A stretch of 64,000 bases of DNA from Saccharopolyspora sp. NFXS83 (GTDB lineage Bacteria > Actinomycetota > Actinomycetes > Mycobacteriales > Pseudonocardiaceae). Location: assembly GCF_026241095.1 (NCBI RefSeq), contig NZ_JAPFGB010000001.1:124001-188000 (forward strand), given 5' to 3'. The notes beneath the pieces were generated by a model, which saw only the letters and a list, made by a program, of their open reading frames with translations, was not told the origin of the DNA and ran no database searches. The position numbers were made by a program, and so were the translations under genes. Below, one piece after another: positions 19,715 through 34,039 of this stretch (position 1 is the stretch's first letter; the number at the start of each line of letters is the position of its first letter).

Positions 19715-19790
19715 GGGGCGTTAGCTCAACTGGCAGAGCAACGGACTTTTAATCCGTGGGTTCTGGGTTCGATCCCCAGGCGCCCCACCA
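19715..19790 (+). tRNA. tRNA-Lys (anticodon TTT), AICE integration site
   Basis: A complete cloverleaf is readable: acceptor stem GGGGCGT paired with GCGCCCC, anticodon stem ACGGA/TCCGT around loop CTTTTAA (anticodon TTT at loop positions 34-36), T-arm CTGGG-TTCGATC-CCCAG, discriminator A and an encoded CCA. The 3' 37 nt, from within the anticodon stem to CCA, are repeated at 33089-33125, which marks it as the attachment site of the downstream element. Confidence 0.95.
19754..19790 (+). repeat. attL, 37-bp direct repeat within tRNA-Lys
   Basis: Identical over 37 bp to 33089-33125; the flanking base differs on both sides (T versus A before, T versus C after). It contains the T-arm and acceptor 3' strand, so insertion rebuilds the tRNA. 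The intact integrase stop lies 52 bp away, the usual geometry. Confidence 0.93.
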
Positions 19791-19841: not shown

Positions 19842-21041
19842 CTAATTGCCAACTTCGCCGGTTTGCCCGTCGGAGTCCACGAACGCCAGCGCGTCAGCGC
19901 TCGCGCGAGACTGCTGGCCCCTGCCGAAGTAGACATCCTGGGTCATCGACACTCGGGAGTGGCCGAGCAGGTCGGCCACCTGGCGGGCGGTGAGCCCTGC
20001 CTCATCGAGCAGTGTCGCCACGGTCTTGCGCATGGTGTGGAAGGTGACCCACTCGTAGCCCGCACGCTTGCGGAACGGGATCCAGGTCCGGTTGCCGACG
20101 TTCGACGAGTTGAGGTAGCCGCCCTGGGTGTTGACGAAGATGGGCTTCGCCGGGTCGACGTCGCCGAGCTGTTCGGCTCGTTCCGAGAGCATCCGCACGG
20201 CCCAGTCCGGCAACGCGATGTCGCGAGCCGAGCCGTCGCTCTTGCCGTCGTTGCGGCGCGTGCCCTGACCACGTGCCCGGATCAGGTTGCCGCTCATCCG
20301 CAGCTTCTTGGCCGCCGGGTCGAAGTCCTCCCAGTGGGCTCCGAGAGCTTCGCCGATGCGTTCGCCGGTGGCGATGAAGAACCGCACCAGGTCAGGCAGG
20401 TCGCGCCGCTTCGCTTCCTCATCGGCGTCGAGCTTGCCCAGCAGGTCGCGGAGTTCATCCTTGGTCAACGCGCGGGGCTTCTTGCGCTTGACCTTGGCGC
20501 GGCGCTCGCTCAAGGCAGCGATCCCCTTCGCCGGGTTCTGCTCCACGGCGCCGGCCTGGATAGCGAAGGCCATGATGTTGCTGATCACGGCCTTGACGAG
20601 CTTAGCCAAGGTCAGGCTGTTGGCCTTGAGCTTGCGCTGACACAGGTTGCTGACCGCTGGTGTCTTCACCTCGAACAGCCGGAAGTTCTGGAACTCGGGC
20701 TTGACGTGGTTTGCGTAGACGTTCTCGTAGGTGTCCAGCGTGGTCAGCGAGTAGATGCCGTTCTCAGCGTCGTCGCGGAACTGAGTCAGCCACTGCGCGG
20801 CGGCTTCACCGAACGGGGAAGACGCGGTCAGGTCGGCACCGGGAGCCGCCGGTGGAGCGAGGTTGTTGACCGCGTCCCGGACCGCTTGCTTCGCCTTTTC
20901 CTTGGTCTTTCCCCGGCGGCGAACGTCCACATAGCTGCCGTCCTCGCGCCGGTACCAGGCCCGAGCTGAATAGGACTTGCCGACCGGTTTGACCGTGATC
21001 TCTCCCATGCTGCCCAGCGGCAGCGGAAGCCGACCGGACAT
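19842..21041 (-). CDS. int: Tyrosine site-specific integrase of the AICE
   Basis: Catalyses integration at tRNA-Lys and, with Xis, excision. It has 399 residues: an N-terminal arm-binding region with a basic YRREDGSYVDVRRRGKTKEK stretch, a SAM-like core-binding domain (~70-170) and the catalytic domain. Catalytic residues are visible: Arg228 in TGERIGEAL, His335 and Arg338 in HTMRK, a His in LGHSR near 361, and Tyr371 in TQDVYFG. ATG at 21041 shares one base with the xis stop (TGATG), so the two are translationally coupled. The longer open frame upstream of this ATG overlaps xis and is rejected. Confidence 0.93.
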   Translation of the reverse strand: MSGRLPLPLGSMGEITVKPVGKSYSARAWYRREDGSYVDVRRRGKTKEKAKQAVRDAVNNLAPPAAPGADLTASSPFGEAAAQWLTQFRDDAENGIYSLTTLDTYENVYANHVKPEFQNFRLFEVKTPAVSNLCQRKLKANSLTLAKLVKAVISNIMAFAIQAGAVEQNPAKGIAALSERRAKVKRKKPRALTKDELRDLLGKLDADEEAKRRDLPDLVRFFIATGERIGEALGAHWEDFDPAAKKLRMSGNLIRARGQGTRRNDGKSDGSARDIALPDWAVRMLSERAEQLGDVDPAKPIFVNTQGGYLNSSNVGNRTWIPFRKRAGYEWVTFHTMRKTVATLLDEAGLTARQVADLLGHSRVSMTQDVYFGRGQQSRASADALAFVDSDGQTGEVGN

Positions 21042-21220
21042 CAGATCACCCCCTCGGGTTGTGCGTCGAACCAGGCTTCGACGTCTTCGGGCCGGTAGCG
21101 GACGTGCTTGCCGACTCGCTTGCCGGTGGGTCCGGTTCCTCGGGTGCGCCATTGGTAGACGGTGCCGACCGGGACGCCGAAGTAGTCGGCCACGTCCTGC
21201 GGTCCCCAGAGTTTCTGCAT
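21041..21220 (-). CDS. xis: Excisionase-like MerR/helix-turn-helix protein
   Basis: 59 residues, a winged-helix excisionase of the HTH_17 type: LWGPQDVADYFGVPVGTVYQW followed by a wing with GKHVRYRPEDVEAWFDAQ. Directly upstream of int and overlapping it as TGATG. Small size, motif and position are those of AICE Xis proteins, which bend the attachment DNA and favour excision. Confidence 0.88.
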   Translation of the reverse strand: MQKLWGPQDVADYFGVPVGTVYQWRTRGTGPTGKRVGKHVRYRPEDVEAWFDAQPEGVI

Positions 21221-21225
21221 CGGGA

Positions 21226-22506
21226 TCAGTCCTTTCGTTCGGTGGAGTGCCGGTGTTTGCGGGTGTCGCGTCGTCGTTGGGCGATGCCTTCGGCGATGTC
21301 GCGTTCCTCTGGGGTGCGGTGTCCGACTGAGGTCATGTCCCAGTGGTTGACCACGGTTACCGACTCTTCGGTGACGCCGAGTTCGTCCAGGGCGGCTTCG
21401 AGGCGGAAGCGCTGCCGGTCGCCACGGATCTGCTTGAACGTCGTGGAGTAGGCCTTGCTCTTGGACAGGAAGTGGCCGCGGAAGGCGAGCATGTGGCACC
21501 AGCGCCGCAGGTTGAGGTGATCCAGCTCCGGGCGGTCGCCGAGTGCCCAGGCGGTGCGCATGAGCTGCTTGTAGTGCTCGTTGATCCGCAACTGTTCGAT
21601 GTGGGCATCGGAGCGGATCGGCCGGTCGGCCGCTTCGGACTTGCCGGTGCCTTTGGTGGCGTACTTCGCGACGTAGGAGGACAGGCGGTCGTCGGTGATC
21701 TCGCCGTCGCCGTCCTCGAAGTCCGGGGCGTTCGCGGCCTTGATGGTGCGGACGTCGATCTGACGGCCCCACGCCAGTTCTCGCGCCTGGCCGTCGATCT
21801 CCGGTGTCGTGATCTGGACCTGCGCGTGCGCCGCACGGATGGCATCGCCCAGCAGGTCCGGAGTCGCCCACGCCGGTGCCTGGTCGGTGGCGCCGTTGGG
21901 TCCGTCGAGGCGGATCACGGCGTGGAAGTGGATCGCTCCGCGTCGCTGGTATTCGGCGACCTTGGCGTAGGAGAGCCGGGCGTGGTCGGCGAAGTCGCGG
22001 ACGCGGATTCCGGCGGCTTTAGCGAGGTGGCGGCGTAGAGCGATGACGAATCGGTGCCAGAGCTGTCCGGCGTGTGCGTTGAACAGGACGTGCCCGGTGT
22101 AGTCGTACCGAGTCGGGAACCGAGGCTGCCCGTCGTCACGGACCGGGCCGAACGAGGGCGCGGTGAGGGTGAGGAACACCCTCGGGCGTTCGGTGACGTG
22201 CTCGGGGACGCCTTTGGTTCCGCCGGACAGGCCCGCGCGGAGGAGGTGGAAGGCGTCGGCGGCGTAGCGGTCGGAGCAGGCGGCACAGACCGATTCGCGG
22301 CGGTTTCCGCAGGGCACCATCACGTGCCCGCCTTTGTGCGCGAGGACCTGACTGGTGGCGGTGTCGGTGACGGTCCAGGCGCCGGTCATGCGGACGGGGT
22401 GGGTGCATCCGCCGGTGGCTTCGACCTGTTCACGCCAGCGGCCGTAATCGGTGCTGTGGAGTCGTCGTTGGTAGCGGTCCACGACCGCCGGATCAGTGCG
22501 CACCAT
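21226..22506 (-). CDS. Rolling-circle replication initiator (RepSA-like, HUH family)
   Basis: A 426-residue initiator that nicks the double-strand origin so that the excised element can replicate. The HUH metal-binding motif is H193-F-H195 in GAIHFHAVIRLDG, and the nicking tyrosines are Y278 and Y282 in YVAKYATK. The N terminus has paired cysteines (CTHP; CGNRRESVCAACSDR) resembling a zinc site. ATG at 22506 is preferred over the longer frame because AAAGGGAAC lies about 8 nt upstream. It follows a strong inverted repeat that separates it from the spd gene and precedes xis by 5 bp. Confidence 0.88.
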   Translation of the reverse strand: MVRTDPAVVDRYQRRLHSTDYGRWREQVEATGGCTHPVRMTGAWTVTDTATSQVLAHKGGHVMVPCGNRRESVCAACSDRYAADAFHLLRAGLSGGTKGVPEHVTERPRVFLTLTAPSFGPVRDDGQPRFPTRYDYTGHVLFNAHAGQLWHRFVIALRRHLAKAAGIRVRDFADHARLSYAKVAEYQRRGAIHFHAVIRLDGPNGATDQAPAWATPDLLGDAIRAAHAQVQITTPEIDGQARELAWGRQIDVRTIKAANAPDFEDGDGEITDDRLSSYVAKYATKGTGKSEAADRPIRSDAHIEQLRINEHYKQLMRTAWALGDRPELDHLNLRRWCHMLAFRGHFLSKSKAYSTTFKQIRGDRQRFRLEAALDELGVTEESVTVVNHWDMTSVGHRTPEERDIAEGIAQRRRDTRKHRHSTERKD

Positions 22507-22531
22507 CTGGTGTGTTCCCTTTCGAACATGA

Positions 22532-22580
22532 CGAAGGCGGAGCACCACCGATGTCGTTCGGTGGTGGTGCTCCGCCTTCG
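22532..22580. repeat. 18-bp inverted repeat upstream of rep (terminator or origin)
   Basis: Arms CGAAGGCGGAGCACCACC (22532-22549) and its exact complement (22563-22580) with a 13-nt loop, lying between the spd gene stop and the rep start. It could terminate the transfer operon, attenuate rep, or be part of the rolling-circle origin. The sequence alone does not choose between these. Confidence 0.7.
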
Positions 22581-22619
22581 TGTGGTTGTGCTTATTCAGT
22601 TGTGGCAACGGTTTTTCGG

Positions 22620-23459
22620 TCAGGTGGCGATGAGATCGGCGTGGATGGCGGTGGCCATCGCGTCCGGGACCTTCACCACCTGTTGCACGTCCGCCGGAGC
22701 GAACCCACGGCCCTCTTCAGCCGCCTGATCCCGAGCACGCTTGAGCGCGTCGACAACGTGCGAGGGCAGACGCGGGCCACGCTTCACCGGCTCAGCCGGG
22801 ACTACCGGAGGCATCGGCGTGGGTGCTTCCGGCGCGGTGGGAGCCGGGGCCGGCTGCGGGACTACTTCCCTGGTTTCCGCAGGTGAGTCATGCCCTGCTG
22901 CGTCGGCGTAGCCCTGCATCACGACTTGCCGTGACCGGGCCTGAATCACCGGGATCACCTCGGCCAGGCCGTAGACGACCACCGGAATGATCAGGTGCAC
23001 CGCCAGCGACCCGAGCTGAAACCGGGTTGGATCGAGCTGCGGGATCACATTCATGAACAACGTCGTGCCGAGTAGGACCCGCTTGATCCGCGTCCACCAA
23101 TGGTGACCCGGCTCAACGCCGTGGGACAAGATGACGGCTTCGAAGTTGAGCAGCAGGATCAGCAGCCCGGCGAACATCGGTTCCACCGTCCAGGCCGCCC
23201 ACCACACCGGGTCACCAGACGTGGCGTCACCGGCGAGGAACGCCTGAACCCCGGTAGTGGTGAACGAGAGGCCGAGAGCGAGGAAGAACCACAGCCCGGC
23301 CACGGTGCGCCGCCGGGTGCGTTCCATCGCGACAGCGATCAAATCGGGATCGAGGGACAGGGGACGCAGCCGTTTGGACTCGGCGATGCGTGCCCCTAGC
23401 CGCTCCACTCGCCGGGTTTTCCCGGCGTCCTGGTCGGTGTTCTTGCGGAACGGCCACAT
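22620..23459 (-). CDS. Spread-type membrane protein (SpdB2 / DUF2637-like)
   Basis: 279 residues. A basic N-terminal 55 residues is followed by four predicted membrane helices (GLWFFLALGLSFTTTGVQAFL; PMFAGLLILLLNFEAVIL; a weaker helix near LLGTTLFMNVIP; LIIPVVVYGLAEVIPVI) and a Pro-rich cytoplasmic tail. The layout resembles SpdB2-like proteins, which help intramycelial spread of conjugated DNA. ATG at 23459 has a GGAAGGGAGGG site upstream; the longer frame to 23579 runs into the preceding gene and is rejected. Confidence 0.72.
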   Translation of the reverse strand: MWPFRKNTDQDAGKTRRVERLGARIAESKRLRPLSLDPDLIAVAMERTRRRTVAGLWFFLALGLSFTTTGVQAFLAGDATSGDPVWWAAWTVEPMFAGLLILLLNFEAVILSHGVEPGHHWWTRIKRVLLGTTLFMNVIPQLDPTRFQLGSLAVHLIIPVVVYGLAEVIPVIQARSRQVVMQGYADAAGHDSPAETREVVPQPAPAPTAPEAPTPMPPVVPAEPVKRGPRLPSHVVDALKRARDQAAEEGRGFAPADVQQVVKVPDAMATAIHADLIAT

Positions 23460-23476
23460 CGCCCGTCCCTCCCTTC

Positions 23477-23662
23477 CTATTCCTCGGTTGTGGTGGTGAT
23501 CAGGGCTTTGACGCCTTGCACGATCAGCGCCAGGACGAGCAGCACCAGGAGCCCGGCGGCAGGACCGGCCAGCGCCCACACCAGCGCCACCAGGCCCACA
23601 GCCAGCAGCCCGGCCAGGGCCAGCGCGGCTAACGAACCCAGGGTCAAATGCACGTGGAACAT
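23477..23662 (-). CDS. Small two-helix membrane protein in the transfer operon
   Basis: 61 residues, nearly all hydrophobic. Two transmembrane helices (SLAALALAGLLAVGLVALVW and AGLLVLLVLALIVQGVKAL) end in a Thr/Glu tail. It lies between traB and the SpdB-like gene in the same direction, with GGAGA before the ATG. AICE transfer operons often hold such small Spd proteins; no specific function can be assigned. Confidence 0.65.
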   Translation of the reverse strand: MFHVHLTLGSLAALALAGLLAVGLVALVWALAGPAAGLLVLLVLALIVQGVKALITTTTEE

Positions 23663-23704: not shown

Positions 23705-25153
23705 TCAGGCGGCGTCGTGGTCTTCGTCGTCGCCGTCGAAGGAGTCGATGTGTTCGATGTCGGCTTCGGTGATCTCCGCGATCGCGGTGCGCCGGGGCGC
23801 CGGGCGTCGCTCGGTACGGCGGATCGGGGTGACCGTGCAGTAGGTGACCAGGGCGGCGATGTCGTCGTCGCTGGTGAACGCGGCGCGCACGCGGAGGGGT
23901 TCGCGGCGGCCGTCGTGTTTGACGTAGCCGGCGCCGGGCATGATCTCCGGAATCTGATCCGCGAGTGCCCCGCGGTCGCGGACGCCTTCGCCCAAGGTCA
24001 TGTCGACGTACGAGGCTTCGTCGAGGCGTAGGGCGATCTTGGTGGGGAACAGGCCCCGCATCGGCACGTTGTCCTTATGCGGCTCCTGCACCGCCCCCAC
24101 CACCCGGCCCAGCACCGCCCGGTACTGCGTCAGAGCCTTGCCCAGCAGCGGTTCGAACTCACGGGCAATGTCACGCGTGCAGTACTGCGTCATCGCAGCC
24201 AGCTCATCCACGATCAACACATCCATCGGCGTCTCGACCGACGCCGTCGCGGTCCGGATTCCTCGGCGGCCGAGGTCTTCCTTCCGCGCGTCCAAGGTCT
24301 TGACGTACTCGCGCATGAGTTCCAGGCCGGTTTCGTCGCTGTCGGCGAACCGGTGGAACATCTCCCGCCCGGCCCCGAACTCCATGCCGCCCTTGGGGTC
24401 GATCACCCACAACCGCACCGACCCCGCCCGGATCAACGGCGCCAACTGCCTGATCAAGCCCCACAACCACGAGCCCTTCCCCGAACCGGTGGCTCCGGCC
24501 AACAGGATGTGCAGGCCGCCCAAGAGATCGAGGGCGAAGTCTCGGCCGTACTCCGTCCGCCCGATCACCAGGCGACCCAGATCCACCGACTCAACCGACT
24601 CCGGCAACGCAGGCAGCGGGACGGGCATCTCATCGAACGGTTCGCGGCGCTGGAAATCCAGACTGATCACACCCGGCTTCAGCGTGCGCACCGTCGCCCG
24701 ACGAGCCCGGTAGGCGTTGGCGAGGCGTTCCAGGACGGCTTCGAAGTCGCCGGGTTCCTGGGTCTTGACCATGCGAATCCGCACGTGGTCCCAGCACCAC
24801 GACGACGACACCCGCACCACCTTCGGCGCCCACGACCGCCCCCGATGATCAGTGACCACGAGACCCGCGCGATAGGCGAGGTCGAACCACTGACGCTGAT
24901 AGACCGCCCACCGTCTCCACCACGCCCGCAACAACCGCCCCGCGAACCGATCGAACGTCGGACGATCCAACAAGCACCAGGAGGCACCGGCCACCACAGC
25001 GACACCGGCGGCACTGAGCACTACGAGGTAGCCCAGCCACACCACCGATGCCCCCAGCACGACCGTGCTCGTCATGGAACGCGGATGCCGAGCCACCCAC
25101 TTCCCCGCTGCCCGTGCCGGAGTCGTTCCGACTGCTACCCGTGTGTCCGTCAT
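23705..25153 (-). CDS. traB: TraB/TraSA FtsK-like conjugative DNA translocase
   Basis: 482-residue septal DNA pump that alone transfers double-stranded element DNA between hyphae. Two membrane helices occur near residues 28-60 (TSTVVLGASVVWLGYLVVL; AGVAVVAGASWCLL). An FtsK/SpoIIIE ATPase core follows, with Walker A GATGSGKGS near residue 220 and Walker B DVLIVDEL near 315. The C-terminal region should recognise the clt repeats. It is the first gene of the minus-strand transfer block. Confidence 0.88.
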   Translation of the reverse strand: MTDTRVAVGTTPARAAGKWVARHPRSMTSTVVLGASVVWLGYLVVLSAAGVAVVAGASWCLLDRPTFDRFAGRLLRAWWRRWAVYQRQWFDLAYRAGLVVTDHRGRSWAPKVVRVSSSWCWDHVRIRMVKTQEPGDFEAVLERLANAYRARRATVRTLKPGVISLDFQRREPFDEMPVPLPALPESVESVDLGRLVIGRTEYGRDFALDLLGGLHILLAGATGSGKGSWLWGLIRQLAPLIRAGSVRLWVIDPKGGMEFGAGREMFHRFADSDETGLELMREYVKTLDARKEDLGRRGIRTATASVETPMDVLIVDELAAMTQYCTRDIAREFEPLLGKALTQYRAVLGRVVGAVQEPHKDNVPMRGLFPTKIALRLDEASYVDMTLGEGVRDRGALADQIPEIMPGAGYVKHDGRREPLRVRAAFTSDDDIAALVTYCTVTPIRRTERRPAPRRTAIAEITEADIEHIDSFDGDDEDHDAA

Positions 25154-26410: not shown

Positions 26411-26506
26411 GGTGTTCTAGTACACCGTCAACTGGTGTTCTGATACAGCATCAATAGGGCTTGTACCAGGAAAGATGCCGCGAGTAGGGTTCTGTCCTAG
26501 AACACC
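26411..26506. promoter_or_regulatory. Three operator-like sites sharing GGTGTTCT, between transfer block and gntR
   Basis: Site 1 at 26411-26426 is GGTGTTCTAGTACACC, a near-perfect palindrome. Site 2 at 26434-26449 is GGTGTTCTGATACAGC. Site 3, on the opposite strand at 26487-26506, reads GGTGTTCTAGGACAGAACCC. They lie in the divergent promoter region between the minus-strand transfer genes and the GntR gene, the arrangement of KorSA-type autorepression in pSAM2. Seen: the repeated motif. Inferred: the GntR protein binds it. Confidence 0.7.
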
Positions 26507-26530: not shown

Positions 26531-27283
26531 GTGCCGACGATCGACCGCGCCGAGCCGCCTTACCTCCAGGTGGTCCGGCACATCCGGGACCGCATCACCA
26601 GCGGTGAGCTCAAGGACGGCGACATGATCCCGTCGGCTCGCCAGATCGCGCGGGAGTGGGACGTCAGCCTGGCTACGGCGACGAAGGCTCTGAGCACGCT
26701 CCGGACGAGCGGGCTGGTGCGAGGCGTCAAGGGCGTCGGCACGGTCGTGCACACCGAGGGGCAGGCGCATCAGTCCGCGCGTGACCGCACCGTCTCGATC
26801 AACCGAACCGGCAAGATCTACCCGCCAGGCCACTACGCCAAGATCCGGTCGGCGCAACTGGTCTCGGCCACGAAGCGGGCCGCCGATGCATTGGGGATCG
26901 AGGAAGGCGCACCGGCCATCCGCCGCCAGCGGACCACCTACCGCGAGGACCACAGCCCGATCTCCACATCGGTGTCGTGGTTCGCGGGTGATCTCGCGGC
27001 CCTGGCCCCGTTGCTGCTGACGACCGGCCGCATCGTCCAGGGCACGACGCAGTACGTCGAGGAGCAGACCGGCCGGGGGATCGTCGCGACCTACGTTGAG
27101 CACGCCGCAGGCACCGCTTCAGCCGACGACGCGGGAGAACTTGGGGTTCCCGAGGGTTCCCCGGTCCTGCTGAGCCGGAACAGGTTCATCGACGGCAACG
27201 GCGCGGTGATCGAGTACGGCGAGTCGACGGCACAGCCGGATCACTGGATTTTCTACGAGTACAGCATCGAAGACGGCGAATAG
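26531..27283 (+). CDS. GntR/HutC-family regulator (KorSA-like)
   Basis: 250 residues. A winged helix (PPYLQVVRHIRDRITSGEL...IPSARQIAREWDVSLATATKAL, ~9-75) is followed by a UTRA ligand domain (~95-240). GTG at 26531 is supported by AGGAGC 5 nt upstream. In pSAM2, KorSA of this family represses transfer and replication genes and keeps the element integrated. The same role is likely here because the three operator-like repeats lie immediately upstream. Confidence 0.85.
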   Translation: MPTIDRAEPPYLQVVRHIRDRITSGELKDGDMIPSARQIAREWDVSLATATKALSTLRTSGLVRGVKGVGTVVHTEGQAHQSARDRTVSINRTGKIYPPGHYAKIRSAQLVSATKRAADALGIEEGAPAIRRQRTTYREDHSPISTSVSWFAGDLAALAPLLLTTGRIVQGTTQYVEEQTGRGIVATYVEHAAGTASADDAGELGVPEGSPVLLSRNRFIDGNGAVIEYGESTAQPDHWIFYEYSIEDGE

Positions 27284-27360: not shown

Positions 27361-27825
27361 TTGGATACGACCTATTTTCAGTATCGTGCGGGAGTCGTGT
27401 CGCAGTCTCGCCGGATTGTGCACAGCGCTTTCGTTGAGGAATCGGAGGAGTCCGCCGCTTGGACTTCATGGTGCCGACGTGAATTCCCCGGCCACCTGGT
27501 CGAGATCACTGCAAAGCCGGGGGAGCGCCCCGAAGCCGGTCAAGCGACACCGTGCGCGCCCTGCGTTCAGTGCCTCCTGGTGTTCACGGCTGCCATCGAA
27601 GTCCCGGCAGACGATCCGATGCCGGTCCGTGCTCCTGATGAGAAGCCCGTAGCCGTCATCTTGCGCAGGGCTCAGTGGTTGCTCGATGACGCTGCCGACC
27701 ACATCAACCAGGGGCGATGCGGGAAGGCCGAATACGCCGAGTTGGCGACAACGTTGGACGACTTGGCGAAGATGATGCGAGAGCGGGCCGAGGTTCCTCG
27801 TGTCGTCGAAGAACCGCACGATTGA
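27361..27825 (+). CDS. Hypothetical AICE protein with a Cys cluster, 154 aa
   Basis: TTG at 27361 is chosen because a GGGGGGAG site lies 7 nt before it. The central TPCAPCVQC segment (CxxCxxC) suggests a metal site. The C-terminal third is helical (ILRRAQWLLDDAADHI). No family recognised. It overlaps the next gene by 26 nt in another frame, implying coupled translation. Confidence 0.6.
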   Translation: MDTTYFQYRAGVVSQSRRIVHSAFVEESEESAAWTSWCRREFPGHLVEITAKPGERPEAGQATPCAPCVQCLLVFTAAIEVPADDPMPVRAPDEKPVAVILRRAQWLLDDAADHINQGRCGKAEYAELATTLDDLAKMMRERAEVPRVVEEPHD

Positions 27826-28030
27826 CCGGCGGCGGCACGTCATGGGCAGGCACAGCCAGAGCAAACGCATCATCGGCTACATGACGGTTTGGACCGGCGA
27901 CCTCAGCAGTGACCTTGCCGAGCCGGTTCCGCCCCGAGAACCGCAGCGTCCGGCCGCACTGGGCGGAGAGTGGGCGGAGCCGACTCCGGAGCTGCTACGC
28001 GCGGTGCTCGAAGGTTTGCAAGAACTCTGA
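27800..28030 (+). CDS. Hypothetical AICE protein, 76 aa
   Basis: GTG at 27800 with GAGG 6 nt upstream, inside the end of the preceding gene. A very basic N terminus (KNRTIDRRRHVMGRHSQSKR) is followed by an acidic, helical C terminus (TPELLRAVLEGLQEL). ATG at 27842 is an alternative start. No function recognised. Confidence 0.5.
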   Translation: MSSKNRTIDRRRHVMGRHSQSKRIIGYMTVWTGDLSSDLAEPVPPREPQRPAALGGEWAEPTPELLRAVLEGLQEL

Positions 28031-28178
28031 TTTCTATAATTCTTCTTTCTGCTTCTGAAGTATCCCGCTCTTAATTCCGGGTAGCCCATCAGCGCGCACG
28101 ATGGCGACAAGCCCGTGTAGTAGGATGCGCAGGTCAGAGCCGCCGAGGTGCCCGCGATGAGAGCAGTCGAGGAATTCA

Positions 28179-29027
28179 ATGAAGCACATTCACGCCGGTA
28201 AGGTCCGGGACCTTTACGAACTGGACGGCGACATCATCTTGGTCGCGTCCGACCGGGTCTCTGTCTATGACGTGACGCTGCCCACGGCGATCCCCGACAA
28301 GGGCGCTCTGCTGACCCAGCTCTCCGCCTGGTGGTTCCGTGAACTCGGCGACGTCGTCCCGAACCACGTCATCTCGACCACCGATGTCCCCGCGGAGTTC
28401 GGCCGGAACGCGCTGCGCTGCAAGCCGCTGGAGATGATCCAGGTCGAGTGCATCGCTCGCGGCTACTTGGCCGGCCTCGGCCTCCGCGAGTACCAGAAGT
28501 ACGGCACCGTCTCCGGCGTCCCGCTGCCCGCCGGCCTGGTCGAGGGCAGCAAGCTGCCCGAGCCGATCTTCACGCCGACCACCAAGATCTCCGATACCGG
28601 TCACGACGAGTTCATCACCTTCGACGACGTGGTGAACCAGGTCGGCCGCGAGACCGCCGAACGCCTCCGGGATCTCACGATCGAGATCTACCAGCGGGGC
28701 GCGGCGCGTGCGGAGCAGAAGGGCATCATCATCGCCGACACGAAGTTCGAGTTCGGCCGCGACGCGGACGGAACTCTGACGCTCGGGGACGAGGTGCTGA
28801 CGTCGGACTCCTCCCGGTTCTGGCCCGCCGACCAGTGGAAGCCCGGCGGCCCCCAGTTCGCCTTCGACAAGCAGTTCGTCCGCGACTGGTCGAGCACGCT
28901 GGAGTGGGACCGCACCCCGCCCGGCCCGGAGGTTCCGGCGGACATCGTCAAGGCCACCCGCCAGCGGTACACCGAAGTCTTCGAACGCATCACCGGCGAA
29001 ACATGGACCCCCGGGAGCCAGTCATGA
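28179..29027 (+). CDS. purC: SAICAR synthase (phosphoribosylaminoimidazole-succinocarboxamide synthase), AICE cargo
   Basis: Ligates aspartate to CAIR in de novo purine synthesis. 282 residues, the normal bacterial length, with all signature segments present: GKVRDLY (residues 7-13, ATP loop), SDRVSVYD, IARGYLAGLG, PIFTPTTK, the DTKFEFG metal-binding region near 188 and DEVLTSDSSRFWP. ATG at 28179 has GAGGAA upstream. It lies inside the AICE, well away from other pur genes, and is coupled by ATGA to a 76-aa gene. The catalytic segments look intact, so it is probably active; whether it duplicates a chromosomal purC cannot be seen here. Confidence 0.95.
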   Translation: MKHIHAGKVRDLYELDGDIILVASDRVSVYDVTLPTAIPDKGALLTQLSAWWFRELGDVVPNHVISTTDVPAEFGRNALRCKPLEMIQVECIARGYLAGLGLREYQKYGTVSGVPLPAGLVEGSKLPEPIFTPTTKISDTGHDEFITFDDVVNQVGRETAERLRDLTIEIYQRGAARAEQKGIIIADTKFEFGRDADGTLTLGDEVLTSDSSRFWPADQWKPGGPQFAFDKQFVRDWSSTLEWDRTPPGPEVPADIVKATRQRYTEVFERITGETWTPGSQS

Positions 29028-29254
29028 CCGAACCTTGGGACACCTACCCAGCCGCCAAACTCGTCAACGACGTCGCCCAACTCCTCCAGGAGCGCGGCGT
29101 GACGCCCCACCCGGACGACGACCGCGAGCCCGAACGCATCCAGGCAGCCCGCAAACTCCTGTCCAGCCTCGGAGTTACCCCCACGCTCTCCCCTGAGCAG
29201 AGCTTGGACTTGAACGGCCACGCTGGCTACAACGCTCGCGTTCACGGGGACTGA
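29024..29254 (+). CDS. Hypothetical protein translationally coupled to purC, 76 aa
   Basis: Starts at the ATGA overlap with the purC stop, so the two are translated together. Short, polar, helical (AKLVNDVAQLLQERG; ERIQAARKLLSSLG); no signal or membrane segment. No family recognised. Coupling to purC suggests a shared role, for example a small regulatory partner, but nothing in the sequence proves it. Confidence 0.6.
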   Translation: MTEPWDTYPAAKLVNDVAQLLQERGVTPHPDDDREPERIQAARKLLSSLGVTPTLSPEQSLDLNGHAGYNARVHGD

Positions 29255-30463: not shown

Positions 30464-30601
30464 TCAAGGGCGGCCCCTGCGGGGCCGCCTGCCAGCTGTA
30501 TGCGAGCCCGGCCAAGCCGGCCGCGGGGCGTGCGGCTGGCGCCGGTCCCAGCGGCCGGCGGCCGGGCGCAAAGCGGAAGGCAGGCGGCCAGGAACCACGC
30601 A
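30464..30601 (+). repeat. Structured 138-bp repeat, copy A (inside the AICE)
   Basis: Over 90% identical by eye to 33755-33890. It can fold along its whole length: GGCCGCCTGCC (30483-30493) pairs with GGCAGGCGGCC (30579-30589). Inside that, a near-continuous 17-bp stem is formed by 30506-30513/30560-30567 and 30516-30524/30551-30559 with an AA bulge. An alternative 9-bp hairpin GGCGGCCCC-TGC-GGGGCCGCC (30469-30489) competes for the first arm. Open frames on both strands here are by-products of composition. Nature unknown. Confidence 0.85.
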
Positions 30602-30714
30602 GGGCCGCATGATGAATGTCGGGCCCGAATAGGGCCACAGGAATGCATTGCGCGGACTCACGGACCTGACAACGCCTCAGTCCCCGGATGCCTGCATCTG
30701 TAGATACACCAGGA

Positions 30715-30825: not shown

Positions 30826-31923
30826 CTAACTATTGATTACGCGCAAATCGGGACGGACCGGATTAGAACGCTGGCCGCCGCCAGATATTTGAACAGGAAC
30901 TAGTCCAAATACGTGCTCGCTCAATTCTGATGAGTAAATATTTAGCTCTTGAGCCACCTCTGCCGGCTTTACGCCCCTTCGGCGAAGCTCCTTAAATACC
31001 TTGGCCAGCAACTCACTTGTTTCTCTGCCTAGCGAAGATCCAGGCTCCGATTTTCTATAGCCACGCCGGGCTAGCTCCTTTACGATCTGATTGTACTTCC
31101 ACTCGGAAATTATACTTAGATCTCGAAGTCGATAGGTTAGCGCCATTGCGGACACGCCCCATACGCGCTTTGCGCTCAAGATCCGTTCGATGGAAGCATT
31201 TTCTAGGCCTTGAGAGAAAAGGGCTGAGCGCGGCATTAGAAAAGCGGAGGCAAACTTGTTCGCTTCGGATTCAGCGGCAGGACCATGTGGAATTCGGTAT
31301 TCGCAGTGGAGTACCAAGTGTCCAAGCTCGTGGGCTGCATCGAATCGCCCACGCTCGCCCGTCTTTTTGATGCTCAAAAAGACGAAAGGAACACCGGATC
31401 TGATTGCCGAAAATGCATCCGCATCTTCACAGTCGGACGAAAGTGAAAAAACGCGAACGCCGTTAGATTCTAGAATTCTTACCATATTGGGGACTGGGGA
31501 TTCGCCCAGTCCCCAGGAAGCGCGGACCCTCTCGGCAGCTTCTTCTGGAGAACAATCAGGGTAGGTCGGAACATTTGGTTTCGGAAGCCTAAAACGTTCC
31601 TCAATCCATGAATTGAGCATGAGCGCGACAGCACCCGATGCTAGGGTGCTGTCGCGCTCAATTGCACTCATCTTGGATAGCGCCCTGAAGCTTGCCGCGT
31701 CGGCCTGGATCTCTTCATGGGCGCCACCGTAGAAGAAATCAACTGGGTACGAGAGAGCCTTAGCGAGAGAAAGTAGCGTTTCATCCGAAGGAACTTTTCG
31801 GCTATTCTCGAAAGCGGTTATGCTCTGAGCCGAAACATCGGAAGCTCGGGAAAGCGCGGCCAACGTTAGTCGCCGACGCTTTCGGGCCAAGATTAGCCGC
31901 TCGGGTGTAAACACCTTCCTCAA
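30826..31923 (-). CDS. XRE helix-turn-helix plus ImmA/IrrE metallopeptidase fusion
   Basis: 365 residues. An N-terminal XRE domain (LILARKRRRLTLAALSRASDVSAQSITAFEN, ~10-60) is followed by an ImmA/IrrE (COG2856) zinc peptidase domain with HELGH at His198-His202 and a downstream Glu in ESEANKFASAFLMP. The last 100 residues form a helical region. TTG at 31923 follows AGGAGA. Such fusions control mobile elements or act as antitoxin-like regulators by cleaving a repressor. Codon use is much more A/T-rich than in neighbouring host genes. It lies 20 bp downstream of a partner gene in the same operon. Confidence 0.85.
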   Translation of the reverse strand: MRKVFTPERLILARKRRRLTLAALSRASDVSAQSITAFENSRKVPSDETLLSLAKALSYPVDFFYGGAHEEIQADAASFRALSKMSAIERDSTLASGAVALMLNSWIEERFRLPKPNVPTYPDCSPEEAAERVRASWGLGESPVPNMVRILESNGVRVFSLSSDCEDADAFSAIRSGVPFVFLSIKKTGERGRFDAAHELGHLVLHCEYRIPHGPAAESEANKFASAFLMPRSALFSQGLENASIERILSAKRVWGVSAMALTYRLRDLSIISEWKYNQIVKELARRGYRKSEPGSSLGRETSELLAKVFKELRRRGVKPAEVAQELNIYSSELSEHVFGLVPVQISGGGQRSNPVRPDLRVINS

Positions 31924-31943: not shown

Positions 31944-32585
31944 TTATTGGCTCTCGCGGAACTCCACCACCACCTCGGTGTCATCGCCGCGAGTGTCCAA
32001 TGGGGTATCGACCATCGGCGCCCTATTTCCAGGCTCGCCAAGGTCAGGAAGATTCAACGGAATGCGTTCGTGCCACTCGTTGATGTACTTCCCGTTCATC
32101 TTTTTCGGGAGCGAAAGCTCGGCCTTGATTTCCTTGCTTCGACGGTAGAGGAGGATCCACGTCGGGATGTCGTCCAACTCCTTGCCGAAGCGAACAACGT
32201 CCTCGCTGAGAAGGACGAGCTGGCCGGTCTTCTCCACGAGCTTGCTGACTTCAGAGCCCTTGGGGTTTTTGGAGCGCACGCGCTTCGTCAGGTCGCCAAC
32301 ACCGCCAGCAGCACTCATGACGGTGATCGCATGGCTTCGCGTTGGGTGGATCACGCGAAGGATGCTGTCCTTCGGTGTGTGGAGCCACTGCTGAGGGCGC
32401 AGTCCCTCGGCCAGGTAGCGGTTAGCGCGGCTCCAGAAGGTGGTGCCCTTCATGCTGGGGGCGTCGAACTTGGTACAAGCACGTGCGTCAGCCGCTGCCT
32501 TGTCCAGAACCTCGTGGAACAGGTCGTGAGACACGCCCAGCTCCTCCAAGCGGTCCCAGGGCCCTTCGTCGTCGAAGCGCTGCAA
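31944..32585 (-). CDS. Unknown partner protein of the XRE-ImmA gene, 213 aa
   Basis: TTG at 32585 is preferred because GGAGG sits 7 nt upstream; the TTG two codons earlier is too close. The soluble protein has conserved-looking segments MKGTTFWSRANRYLAEGL and RVIHPTRSHAITVMSAAGGVGD, a basic centre and an acidic tail (GDDTEVVVEFRES). I recognise no domain. Being first in an operon with an XRE-ImmA regulator, it may be a toxin, an effector or the peptidase substrate; this is inference from layout only. Confidence 0.6.
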   Translation of the reverse strand: MQRFDDEGPWDRLEELGVSHDLFHEVLDKAAADARACTKFDAPSMKGTTFWSRANRYLAEGLRPQQWLHTPKDSILRVIHPTRSHAITVMSAAGGVGDLTKRVRSKNPKGSEVSKLVEKTGQLVLLSEDVVRFGKELDDIPTWILLYRRSKEIKAELSLPKKMNGKYINEWHERIPLNLPDLGEPGNRAPMVDTPLDTRGDDTEVVVEFRESQ

Positions 32586-33088
32586 GAGCAAACCTCCAGT
32601 TGGTCAGTTTCAAGAACTCTACCTCATCCGAGGTGGGATCTATGAAACCTCCCAGGGCGCGCTTCGATGAAGTCGAAATATCTAGGCTGACTATAGGTCA
32701 ACCGAGAAGTGGGGTTGTGTCGATGTAAGGAGTATCACACTATCGTGCGTTCGTTGCTGCCCTGGATGAGCCTGACGTGAAGCTAGCGGTGTTCCCGCTG
32801 GGAGTGCGCCTGGCGCAAGCCAACTTTTCATGATCATCTTGGCATACTGACTTAGGTCCACTGGTCCGACGGCTCGACCTGACTGGCTTGAGGAAGTGGT
32901 GCGTGCGGGCGCCGGTCGCAGGTACGGACGTTCGCCGACGCGTGGAAGTTGCCAATGAAGTGCCAAAAATCAGGTGGCAACGGCGTCATGTGATGGCAGA
33001 TGACTGCGTTCATGGTGGCGAGGTCTTCGCAGGTGACAGGCCCATGCTGTCAGGTGACGGCAGATGTCGACGAGCACGGACGCCAGAA
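32586..33088. other. Non-coding right end of the AICE
   Basis: About 500 bp between the operon start and attR. No open frame has a ribosome site. It should hold the promoter for the minus-strand operon and integrase arm-binding sites. An ATTTCGACTTCAT-type A/T-rich stretch near 32670-32700 is visible, but no clear -10/-35 could be fixed. Confidence 0.45.
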
Positions 33089-33125
33089 CCGTGGGTTCTG
33101 GGTTCGATCCCCAGGCGCCCCACCA
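33089..33125 (+). repeat. attR, 37-bp copy of the tRNA-Lys 3' end
   Basis: Exact copy of 19754-19790, including TTCGATCC and the CCA end, but without the 5' half of a tRNA, so it is not a functional tRNA gene. It is followed after 67 bp by the stop of a truncated integrase pointing towards it, which suggests it also served as attL of an older element. Confidence 0.92.
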
Positions 33126-33192
33126 CCACCGCAGGTCAGAGCGTTGTTCGGTTCTCGGATCAAGATCGCGTCCACACAGAACCCACACGAAA

Positions 33193-33760
33193 CTAGTGTG
33201 ACTCTTTAGCGAAGGCGGCTTCGAGCGCGGTCGCAGCGTCCCGGCTGACCGTCTTCCGAGCCATGTAGACATCCTGCGTGAGCGACGGCCGAGAGTGGCC
33301 GAGCTGGTCGGCGACGAGCCGCGGAGTCAACCTCGCTTCGTCCAGGATGGTCGCCGCTGTCTTCCGGAACACGTGCGAAGTCACCCAGGCGAATCCCTCG
33401 CTTCCGCGAGCGTTGCGGAGATCGCGAAGGGTGTTCGACGGATCGCGGAGTCCGCCGATGCTGTCCGGGAAGATCGGCCCCTCTTCGCCCTCTGCCAGGT
33501 AGTAGCGCCGCCGGAGCATGTCGACGGCCCACGAGGGCAGCGGCAGCGTCCGTTCGCCCGCGATGGTTTTGGTGGACTTGCGGATGAGTCCCTTCCTCTT
33601 TCGCCGGGCCACGGTGAAGTTCACCGCGATCGTTCCGGCCGTCAGGTCGAGATCGGGCCAGCACACGGCCAGCGCCTCACCGATCCGGACTCCGGTGGCG
33701 AGCATGAAGCGGGACAAGTCCGGCAGATCTTTCCGAGAAGCGACCTCATCGGCTTCAAGG
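33193..33760 (-). pseudogene. Truncated tyrosine integrase (catalytic domain only)
   Basis: About 188 residues from LEADEVASRKDLPDL to the C terminus, homologous to the catalytic half of the intact AICE integrase. Catalytic residues remain: Arg in TGVRIGEAL, His/Arg in SHVFRKTA, His in GHSRPS and Tyr in TQDVYMA. The frame is interrupted at its 5' side exactly where repeat copy B begins, and no arm-binding or core-binding domain is found beyond. It is therefore a relic of a second tRNA-Lys element. The open frame continues through the repeat only by chance. Confidence 0.85.
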
Positions 33761-33890
33761 GCGGCCCCTGCGGGGCCGCCTGCCTGCTGTATGCGAGCCC
33801 GGCCGCCGACCGCCGGGCGTGCGGCTGGCGCCGGTCGCAGCGGCCGGCGGCCGGGCGCAGAGCGGAAGGCAGGCGGCCAGGAACCACGCA
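33755..33890 (+). repeat. Structured 138-bp repeat, copy B (at the broken integrase)
   Basis: 136 bp matching copy A from TCAAGGGCGGCCCC to GGAACCACGCA. The outer arms (33774-33784 / 33868-33878) and the GCCCGGCC/GGCCGGGC stem (33797-33804 / 33849-33856) are conserved. The inner stem has one A:C mismatch and lacks the AA bulge. Its left end coincides with the truncation point of the integrase relic. Confidence 0.85.
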
Positions 33891-34039
33891 AGGGGCCTCA
33901 GTTAGGAACCGAACCTAAACGAGCACCAGTACGACGACCAGGAACACGGCGAGGTCGCCGAGGCGCGAATAGGCGATCCGCGGAATCCGTGCCTAAGACG
34001 CCGGCACGTCGAGTGCCCTCCCGGGCAGATTCAACGGAC

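Follow-up and report, generated by a model that had tools for sequence, protein, structure and literature searches.

Why should a gene for SAICAR synthase, a central purine enzyme, reside inside an integrated element of an actinomycete? The question is raised by a stretch of 64,000 nucleotides from Saccharopolyspora sp. NFXS83 (hereafter the window, meaning the whole stretch analysed, from genome G000), in which an initial annotation described a full-length purC coupled to a 76-aa gene. Both ORFs are present, purC at 28179..29027 (+; 282 aa) and orf76b at 29024..29254 (+; 76 aa), and they share an ATGA overlap. The strongest signal of the locus had escaped that annotation: purC forms a unit with the gene of a Kor-type GntR regulator, accompanied by operator-like palindromes and found in several families and gene orders.

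The element is 13.4 kb long and, according to a repeat search, lies between a tRNA-Lys gene (19715..19790, +; ARAGORN), the 3′ part of which represents attL, and a 37-bp copy of the tRNA 3′ end, attR (33089..33125, +). This repeat rules out a wrong att call. Encoded on the minus strand are a tyrosine integrase (ORF 19842..21152; Phage_integrase PF00589, 62.9 bits), with the true start likely nearer 21041; a small helix-turn-helix protein, labelled excisionase-like by eye from its translation (21041..21220); the replication initiator RepSA (21226..22608; PF20199, 462.8 bits); an SpdB-like membrane protein (22620..23579), which matched no Pfam family and was labelled by eye, with BLAST kin in G120 and Kutzneria; and a Tra protein of the FtsK/SpoIIIE type (23705..25153; PF01580, 46.5 bits). 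The plus strand carries the Kor-type regulator gene (26531..27283), two small ORFs, orf154 (27361..27825; 154 aa) and orf76a (27800..28030; 76 aa), which among the loci compared occur in the window and in G120 only, and then purC and orf76b. Flanked by direct repeats that mark insertion at the 3′ end of a tRNA gene, and possessing an integrase, a replication initiator and an FtsK-type Tra recognised by Pfam, the element is an AICE as judged by gene content and att sites, and the initial placement of purC between AICE genes and att holds. The DNA 5′ of the element was matched in all six genomes of the genus that we searched. A second copy of the att repeat is listed for G000, G120 and G137 but not for G046, G079 or G101, so the tRNA-Lys site looks free in the latter three.

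Between the purC cassette and attR, PADLOC matched RmrA (476.7 bits) to an XRE/ImmA-type protein (30826-31923, −) and RmrT (162.4 bits) to its partner (31944-32591, −), a candidate anti-phage pair; we found no paper on RmrAT in the open-access literature. To the right of attR (33126-33759) there is a truncated integrase, which shares about 94% identity with the G120 element at its integrase end; it is probably what remains of a second element inserted at this tRNA-Lys. Two direct repeats, each about 140 bp long (30464-30604 and 33755-33893) and comprising blocks of 50 and 89 bp that match at 98% and 94%, stand 3.3 kb apart, the right copy being the end of the integrase remnant.

The initial description of a full-length synthase with intact motifs proved correct. 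The element PurC scored 236.2 bits against PF01259 (cut-off 20) and 389.7 bits against the NCBIfam equivalog NF010568 (cut-off 251), and by sequence its nearest counterparts among solved structures are 3r9r and 6yvq. Invariant in 16 PurC sequences are K8, R10, H63, E90, D143, K189, E191, D204, D210-S211-S212-R213, K231 and R235, which, mapped by motif onto excerpts of PMC9376930, would be the published ATP, Mg and substrate residues. Comparing G000 with G120 gave dN/dS values of 0.092 (element purC), 0.09 (resident purC) and 0.19 (orf76b), and GntR shows zero amino-acid changes (the value for orf154 was discarded as an alignment artefact caused by unequal lengths). The open frame and the dN/dS of 0.092, a mark of purifying selection, exclude a pseudogene. 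Since PurC of the element lineage is the sole PurC in some genomes, the element enzyme probably works, as far as its sequence allows us to judge.

The initial annotation also advised looking for a chromosomal purC and building a tree with both copies. Such a gene exists at G000:C1:78586-79422, about 74 kb from the element purC and immediately downstream of purB, an ORF in which both adenylosuccinate-lyase domains are recognised; thus, the element copy is not the only purC of the genome. The two proteins belong to the same enzyme family and share 57-58% identity, but a tree of 87 rows, built without the purC fragments L188 and L189, separated the resident purC (type A) from that of the element (type B) at 100/99, and the type-A copies examined also differ in having neither GntR nor an operator-like site upstream. 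Such identity and such separate clades rule out a recent duplicate of the host purC. Within type B, the five element rows do not form one group. A second tree, of 54 rows, united all 24 GntR-linked copies in one clade (100/99) together with 14 unlinked ones; the other purC genes of families f90, f91 and f7 and of G764 (f92) stayed outside it, and the second copy of G794 (f92, L268) fell inside.

In some genomes the type-B gene stands alone. A single PF01259 gene was found in 23 of 26 genomes, nearly all of which had been chosen as type-B carriers, and as far as the loci were read, all of these 23 except Thermocrispum agreste have no gntR adjoining it. In T. agreste and in G762, it is the cassette purC that is the sole purC. 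A further PF01259 match is retained by 34 of the 35 named cassette carriers searched, and two PF01259 genes are present in 7 genomes of a set of 12. Take-over by the type-B purC happens, yet it is not the rule. In Amycolatopsis sp. 2-2 (locus L129), the other purC was matched as two overlapping pieces (G655:C1:3107965-3108706), perhaps through a frameshift or a sequencing error, and the cassette purC is intact.

We now turn to the regulator. Its assignment to the KorSA-type GntR/HutC proteins rests on the GntR helix-turn-helix and UTRA domains found by Pfam and on kinship to plasmid GntRs: at E 1e-20 it has kin in 81 plasmid records, of which 69 are from Streptomyces, with a best identity of 49.8%. 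Scanning one genome per species (84,980 genomes) with a GntR alignment gave 42 named loci. At 36 of them purC comes directly after gntR, with the gntR stop and the purC start overlapping by 4 nt in 35 cases and the genes abutting in L154; an orf76b match accompanies 35 of the 36, the match being weak in L140 and part of a fusion protein at two loci. The six loci without purC are L125, L151, L153, L155, L156 and L158. In L125 and L151, both from Actinokineospora, the operators and element-like surroundings are present without purC; in L153 the contig ends within gntR, and L156 and L158 are partial GntR matches. In the window itself, 895 bp and two small ORFs separate gntR from purC, so the link is loosened there and co-transcription is putative; in G120, too, the two ORFs stand between these genes.

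A class-level search (394 genomes) gave 35 GntR matches in 33 genomes, of which 30 yielded a locus. In 11 of these 30, the window included, purC lies within about 1.5 kb, and in 19 there is none near; together with the two Actinokineospora loci, these 19 indicate that Kor does not need PurC. The purC-linked regulators are at least 41.9% identical to the window GntR, and the unlinked ones at most 41.5% in 18 of 19 cases, the other reaching 47.8%. Far from being the isolated oddity implied at the outset, the pair recurs in four families, including Pseudonocardiaceae, and in three gene orders. The order gntR then purC is seen in six class-level loci of genus g310 of family f90 (in three of them, G909, G711 and G1032, orf76b-like ORFs were recognised by eye); purC lies upstream of gntR on the same strand in G764 and G794 (f92) and G387 (f7); and the two genes are divergent in G996 (f90). 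No other pur gene accompanies the cassette in the loci read. Near purC in both f92 elements there are similar two-gene pairs (L284 11091-11662 and L285 14099-14715), which by eye resemble PIN-type toxin-antitoxin genes.

An array of CTAG palindromes with the consensus GYGTNCTAGNACRC precedes gntR, near positions −125, −100 and −43. In the window, it comprises GTGTTCTAGTACAC (26412..26425), an exact match; the degenerate middle site GTGTTCTGATACAG (26435..26448), which has three mismatches and was placed via the G120 site and the sequence; and CTGTCCTAGAACAC (26492..26505), with one mismatch. At least three sites with at most two mismatches were found in 39 of 43 regions before gntR, many of which are Amycolatopsis near-copies; the exceptions are the window and L152 with two sites, G082 with one and L155 with none. 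Eighteen representatives, a set leaving out G120 as a near-copy, L155 as having no site and most Amycolatopsis near-copies, held 47 sites with at most one mismatch, against a shuffle mean of 0.05 and a maximum of 2 in 300 rounds. Taken alone, the window has two such sites, both before gntR, and at least as many turned up in 10 of 100 shuffled versions. When 20 whole genomes were scanned, 16 of which had a match, exact sites were mostly less frequent than those of the reversed control pattern; hence, the motif is informative as an array and not through counts. All three exact matches of Actinosynnema G246 and Kutzneria G126 precede gntR, and extra sites elsewhere in Amycolatopsis are no commoner than the reversed-pattern control.

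Before the window purC there is just a degenerate site at 28115, with two mismatches and a changed core. Where purC comes first, a palindrome with one mismatch stands some 6 bp or less from where the homologous purC begins in all three cases, and exact sites precede gntR; in the divergent G996, no such palindrome was found. Amycolatopsis G213, with a single purC and no adjoining gntR, has one exact site starting 49 bp before purC, and the other unlinked type-B copies checked have no CTAG site (up to two mismatches) within 400 bp. We regard the CTAG palindromes as putative GntR operators.

As for orf76b, the coupling to purC claimed initially stood the test, since orf76b recurs as the third gene and, in two species, forms one protein with PurC; the main conserved partner of purC, though, is the upstream GntR gene, which that annotation had missed. 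Matches to orf76b at E 0.01, some of them partial, occur in 25 of 249 family genomes. A type-B purC adjoins in 19 of the 24 places fetched besides the window, the remaining five being partial matches without purC; gntR is upstream in 18 of these 19, not adjacent in G120, and is missing in G071. Thermocrispum agreste and Pseudonocardia spinosispora encode PurC and orf76b as one protein of 358 and 359 aa, respectively. These fusions offer a first testable partner for a small uncharacterised protein. The predicted structure of orf76b (mean pLDDT 74.7) has no PDB fold match at E 0.001, and in the model of a fusion pLDDT falls below 70 in seven of the last eight ten-residue blocks, so we claim no interface. 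A joint alignment of the fusions with the orf76b rows misplaced the small proteins and was not used. A phylum search gave matches in 2 of 396 genomes, with at most 14 candidates scored per genome; given the orf76b-like ORFs seen by eye in f90, it is no evidence of absence. Small proteins in L025, L028 and L116, with no purC nearby, contain a stretch weakly like orf76b, and judging from such sequences orf76b could be one member of a broader family of domains.

Both att copies could be located in seven elements carrying the gntR-purC pair, all with a Pfam-supported integrase. Besides the window, these are G120 (repeat of 41 bp), Lentzea atacamensis (tRNA-Ser, 55 bp), Actinosynnema pretiosum (tRNA-Ser, 54 bp), Saccharothrix coeruleofusca (tRNA-Thr, exact over 17 bp and continuing imperfectly), G764 (tRNA-Ser, 53 bp) and G794 (tRNA-Gly, 44 bp). 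RepSA is found in the window, G764, G794 and, by BLAST, G120; L. atacamensis has a Prim-Pol protein instead, and A. pretiosum and S. coeruleofusca a DUF3987 protein. A Tra recognised by Pfam is encoded in the window, L. atacamensis and G764; that of G120 resembles the window's and that of G794 resembles G764's (28%). The Tra of A. pretiosum is doubtful, and a scan of two ORFs from S. coeruleofusca revealed none, so the latter element may be unable to transfer itself. Across all 10 Amycolatopsis genomes fetched, the cassette lies between the same core genes.

What could such a cassette do? KorSA binds its own promoter, according to excerpts of PMC8584621. We propose that the cassette pairs a Kor-type GntR/UTRA repressor with an active SAICAR synthase, to which a small partner protein of PurC is often added. 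GntR would bind the palindromes before its own gene and, where purC comes first, also those before purC, holding the cassette down while the element is quiescent. Once Kor repression is lifted, PurC would be produced along with the transfer programme and would boost the CAIR-to-SAICAR step, and thereby purine synthesis for replication and spread of the element; Kor, in turn, may sense how much of the PurC substrate or product is present. Should the resident purC decay, the cassette-lineage copy would remain as the sole purC, and such stabilisation by replacement is likely a consequence of carrying the cassette. That a functional SAICAR synthase under Kor autoregulation, made on derepression, ties element activation to purine metabolism is a proposition to which we give about an even chance. 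It incorporates the initial suggestion that purC could relieve purine limitation during transfer. The same gene beside the same type of transfer-control gene across families suggests a link between DNA transfer and purine metabolism.

It is tempting to regard PurC as a signal enzyme and not a supplier: it would set the level of SAICAR (or CAIR or AICAR) as the effector of the Kor UTRA domain, closing a loop from Kor through PurC and ligand back to Kor. The UTRA-domain regulator is the only partner kept through the three gene orders, and the ligand of KorSA and its homologue SCO3932 is reported as unknown in excerpts of PMC8584621; since Kor-type GntRs without purC exist, we consider this possible at best. 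Equally tentative is the fuller version, in which a purine intermediate is the Kor effector, the element PurC writes the signal, purine state gates conjugation and orf76b is a PurC adaptor. It is unlikely that stabilisation is the whole purpose, that is, that an extra copy of an essential gene prevents the host from losing the element after the resident purC has decayed, with Kor regulation merely limiting the cost of a second copy. The single-gene genomes among those picked as type-B carriers, the lone cassette purC of T. agreste and G762 and the one operator retained before the sole purC of Amycolatopsis G213 all fit this idea; yet a second PF01259 match is present in nearly all cassette carriers searched, neither gntR nor operator accompanies most single type-B copies (one adjoins purB), and the gene may have moved from element to chromosome or the reverse. 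If purC had simply been caught once beside kor and inherited with no role for the element, one old event would account for the several groupings that the GntR and PurC trees share within Pseudonocardiaceae. From the three arrangements of one pair we infer that neutral linkage is hard to sustain, and the 4-nt overlap in 35 of 36 loci, the dN/dS of 0.09 and the orf76b fusions likewise make such a passive ride very unlikely.

The initial annotation had considered a defence or immunity role similar to that of Pif, the Nudix immunity factor of pSAM2, and in this case PurC-orf76b would act like Pif or against phage. Pif and PurC are both enzymes of nucleotide chemistry on an AICE, the element also bears the RmrA/RmrT pair, and AICEs often carry nucleotide-metabolism enzymes, namely Nudix and HD hydrolases and, in Frankia, a PurN-like protein (excerpts of PMC3218068). 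Unlike Pif, PurC is a housekeeping-type enzyme without a Nudix domain: Pfam matched none in PurC, orf76b or eight other proteins scanned, and PADLOC left PurC and orf76b unmatched at E 0.01, which makes this role highly improbable. There is also resistance to an aspartate analogue to consider. L-alanosine is such an analogue and is said to be activated by PurC, and actinomycetes, the hosts here, make compounds of this kind. The motifs putatively holding aspartate, mapped onto excerpts of PMC9376930, are nevertheless unchanged between types A and B, and we deem this explanation extremely improbable.

In comparison with the pSAM2-type AICE and its KorSA kil-kor system, the window element shares the tRNA 3′-end site, tyrosine integrase, RepSA, FtsK-type Tra and GntR/UTRA regulator; it differs in having purC and orf76b downstream of the kor gene. 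Among the papers covered as excerpts (PMC3218068, PMC8584621, PMC11706625, PMC3364876, PMC6501894 and PMC9376930), those on AICEs describe no kor-purC-orf76b cassette, and a search of the open-access literature, subscription journals lying outside our scope, brought up no report of purC in an AICE. KorSA-type repressors control the transfer of actinomycete elements, and the pairing of Kor with PurC in three gene orders and four families would provide a short list of candidate ligands for them. A core biosynthetic gene that travels with integrative elements and is the sole copy in some genomes also bears on the replacement of essential genes.

Finally, we would like to comment on other possible vehicles. 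A phage origin of the element purC was rejected: 184 phage records match PurC, none at 60% identity or more and the best at 45.7%, and viral contigs gave one distant locus (37%). Spread by plasmids was rejected as well, since none of 72,556 plasmid records matched orf76b at E 0.01; three records with DNA similar to purC-orf76b do not support it, being one of chromosome size (11.85 Mb), one with pur genes around purC and one short match. In Nonomuraea, NZ_LT559118.1 (L004), filed as a plasmid, is 11.85 Mb long and has the size of a chromosome. Cyanophages are likewise mobile elements with a single purine-pathway gene; among the 184 phage records, 126 are named Synechococcus and 43 Cyanophage, and their PurC differs from the element PurC, the named cyanophages shown having about 30% identity.
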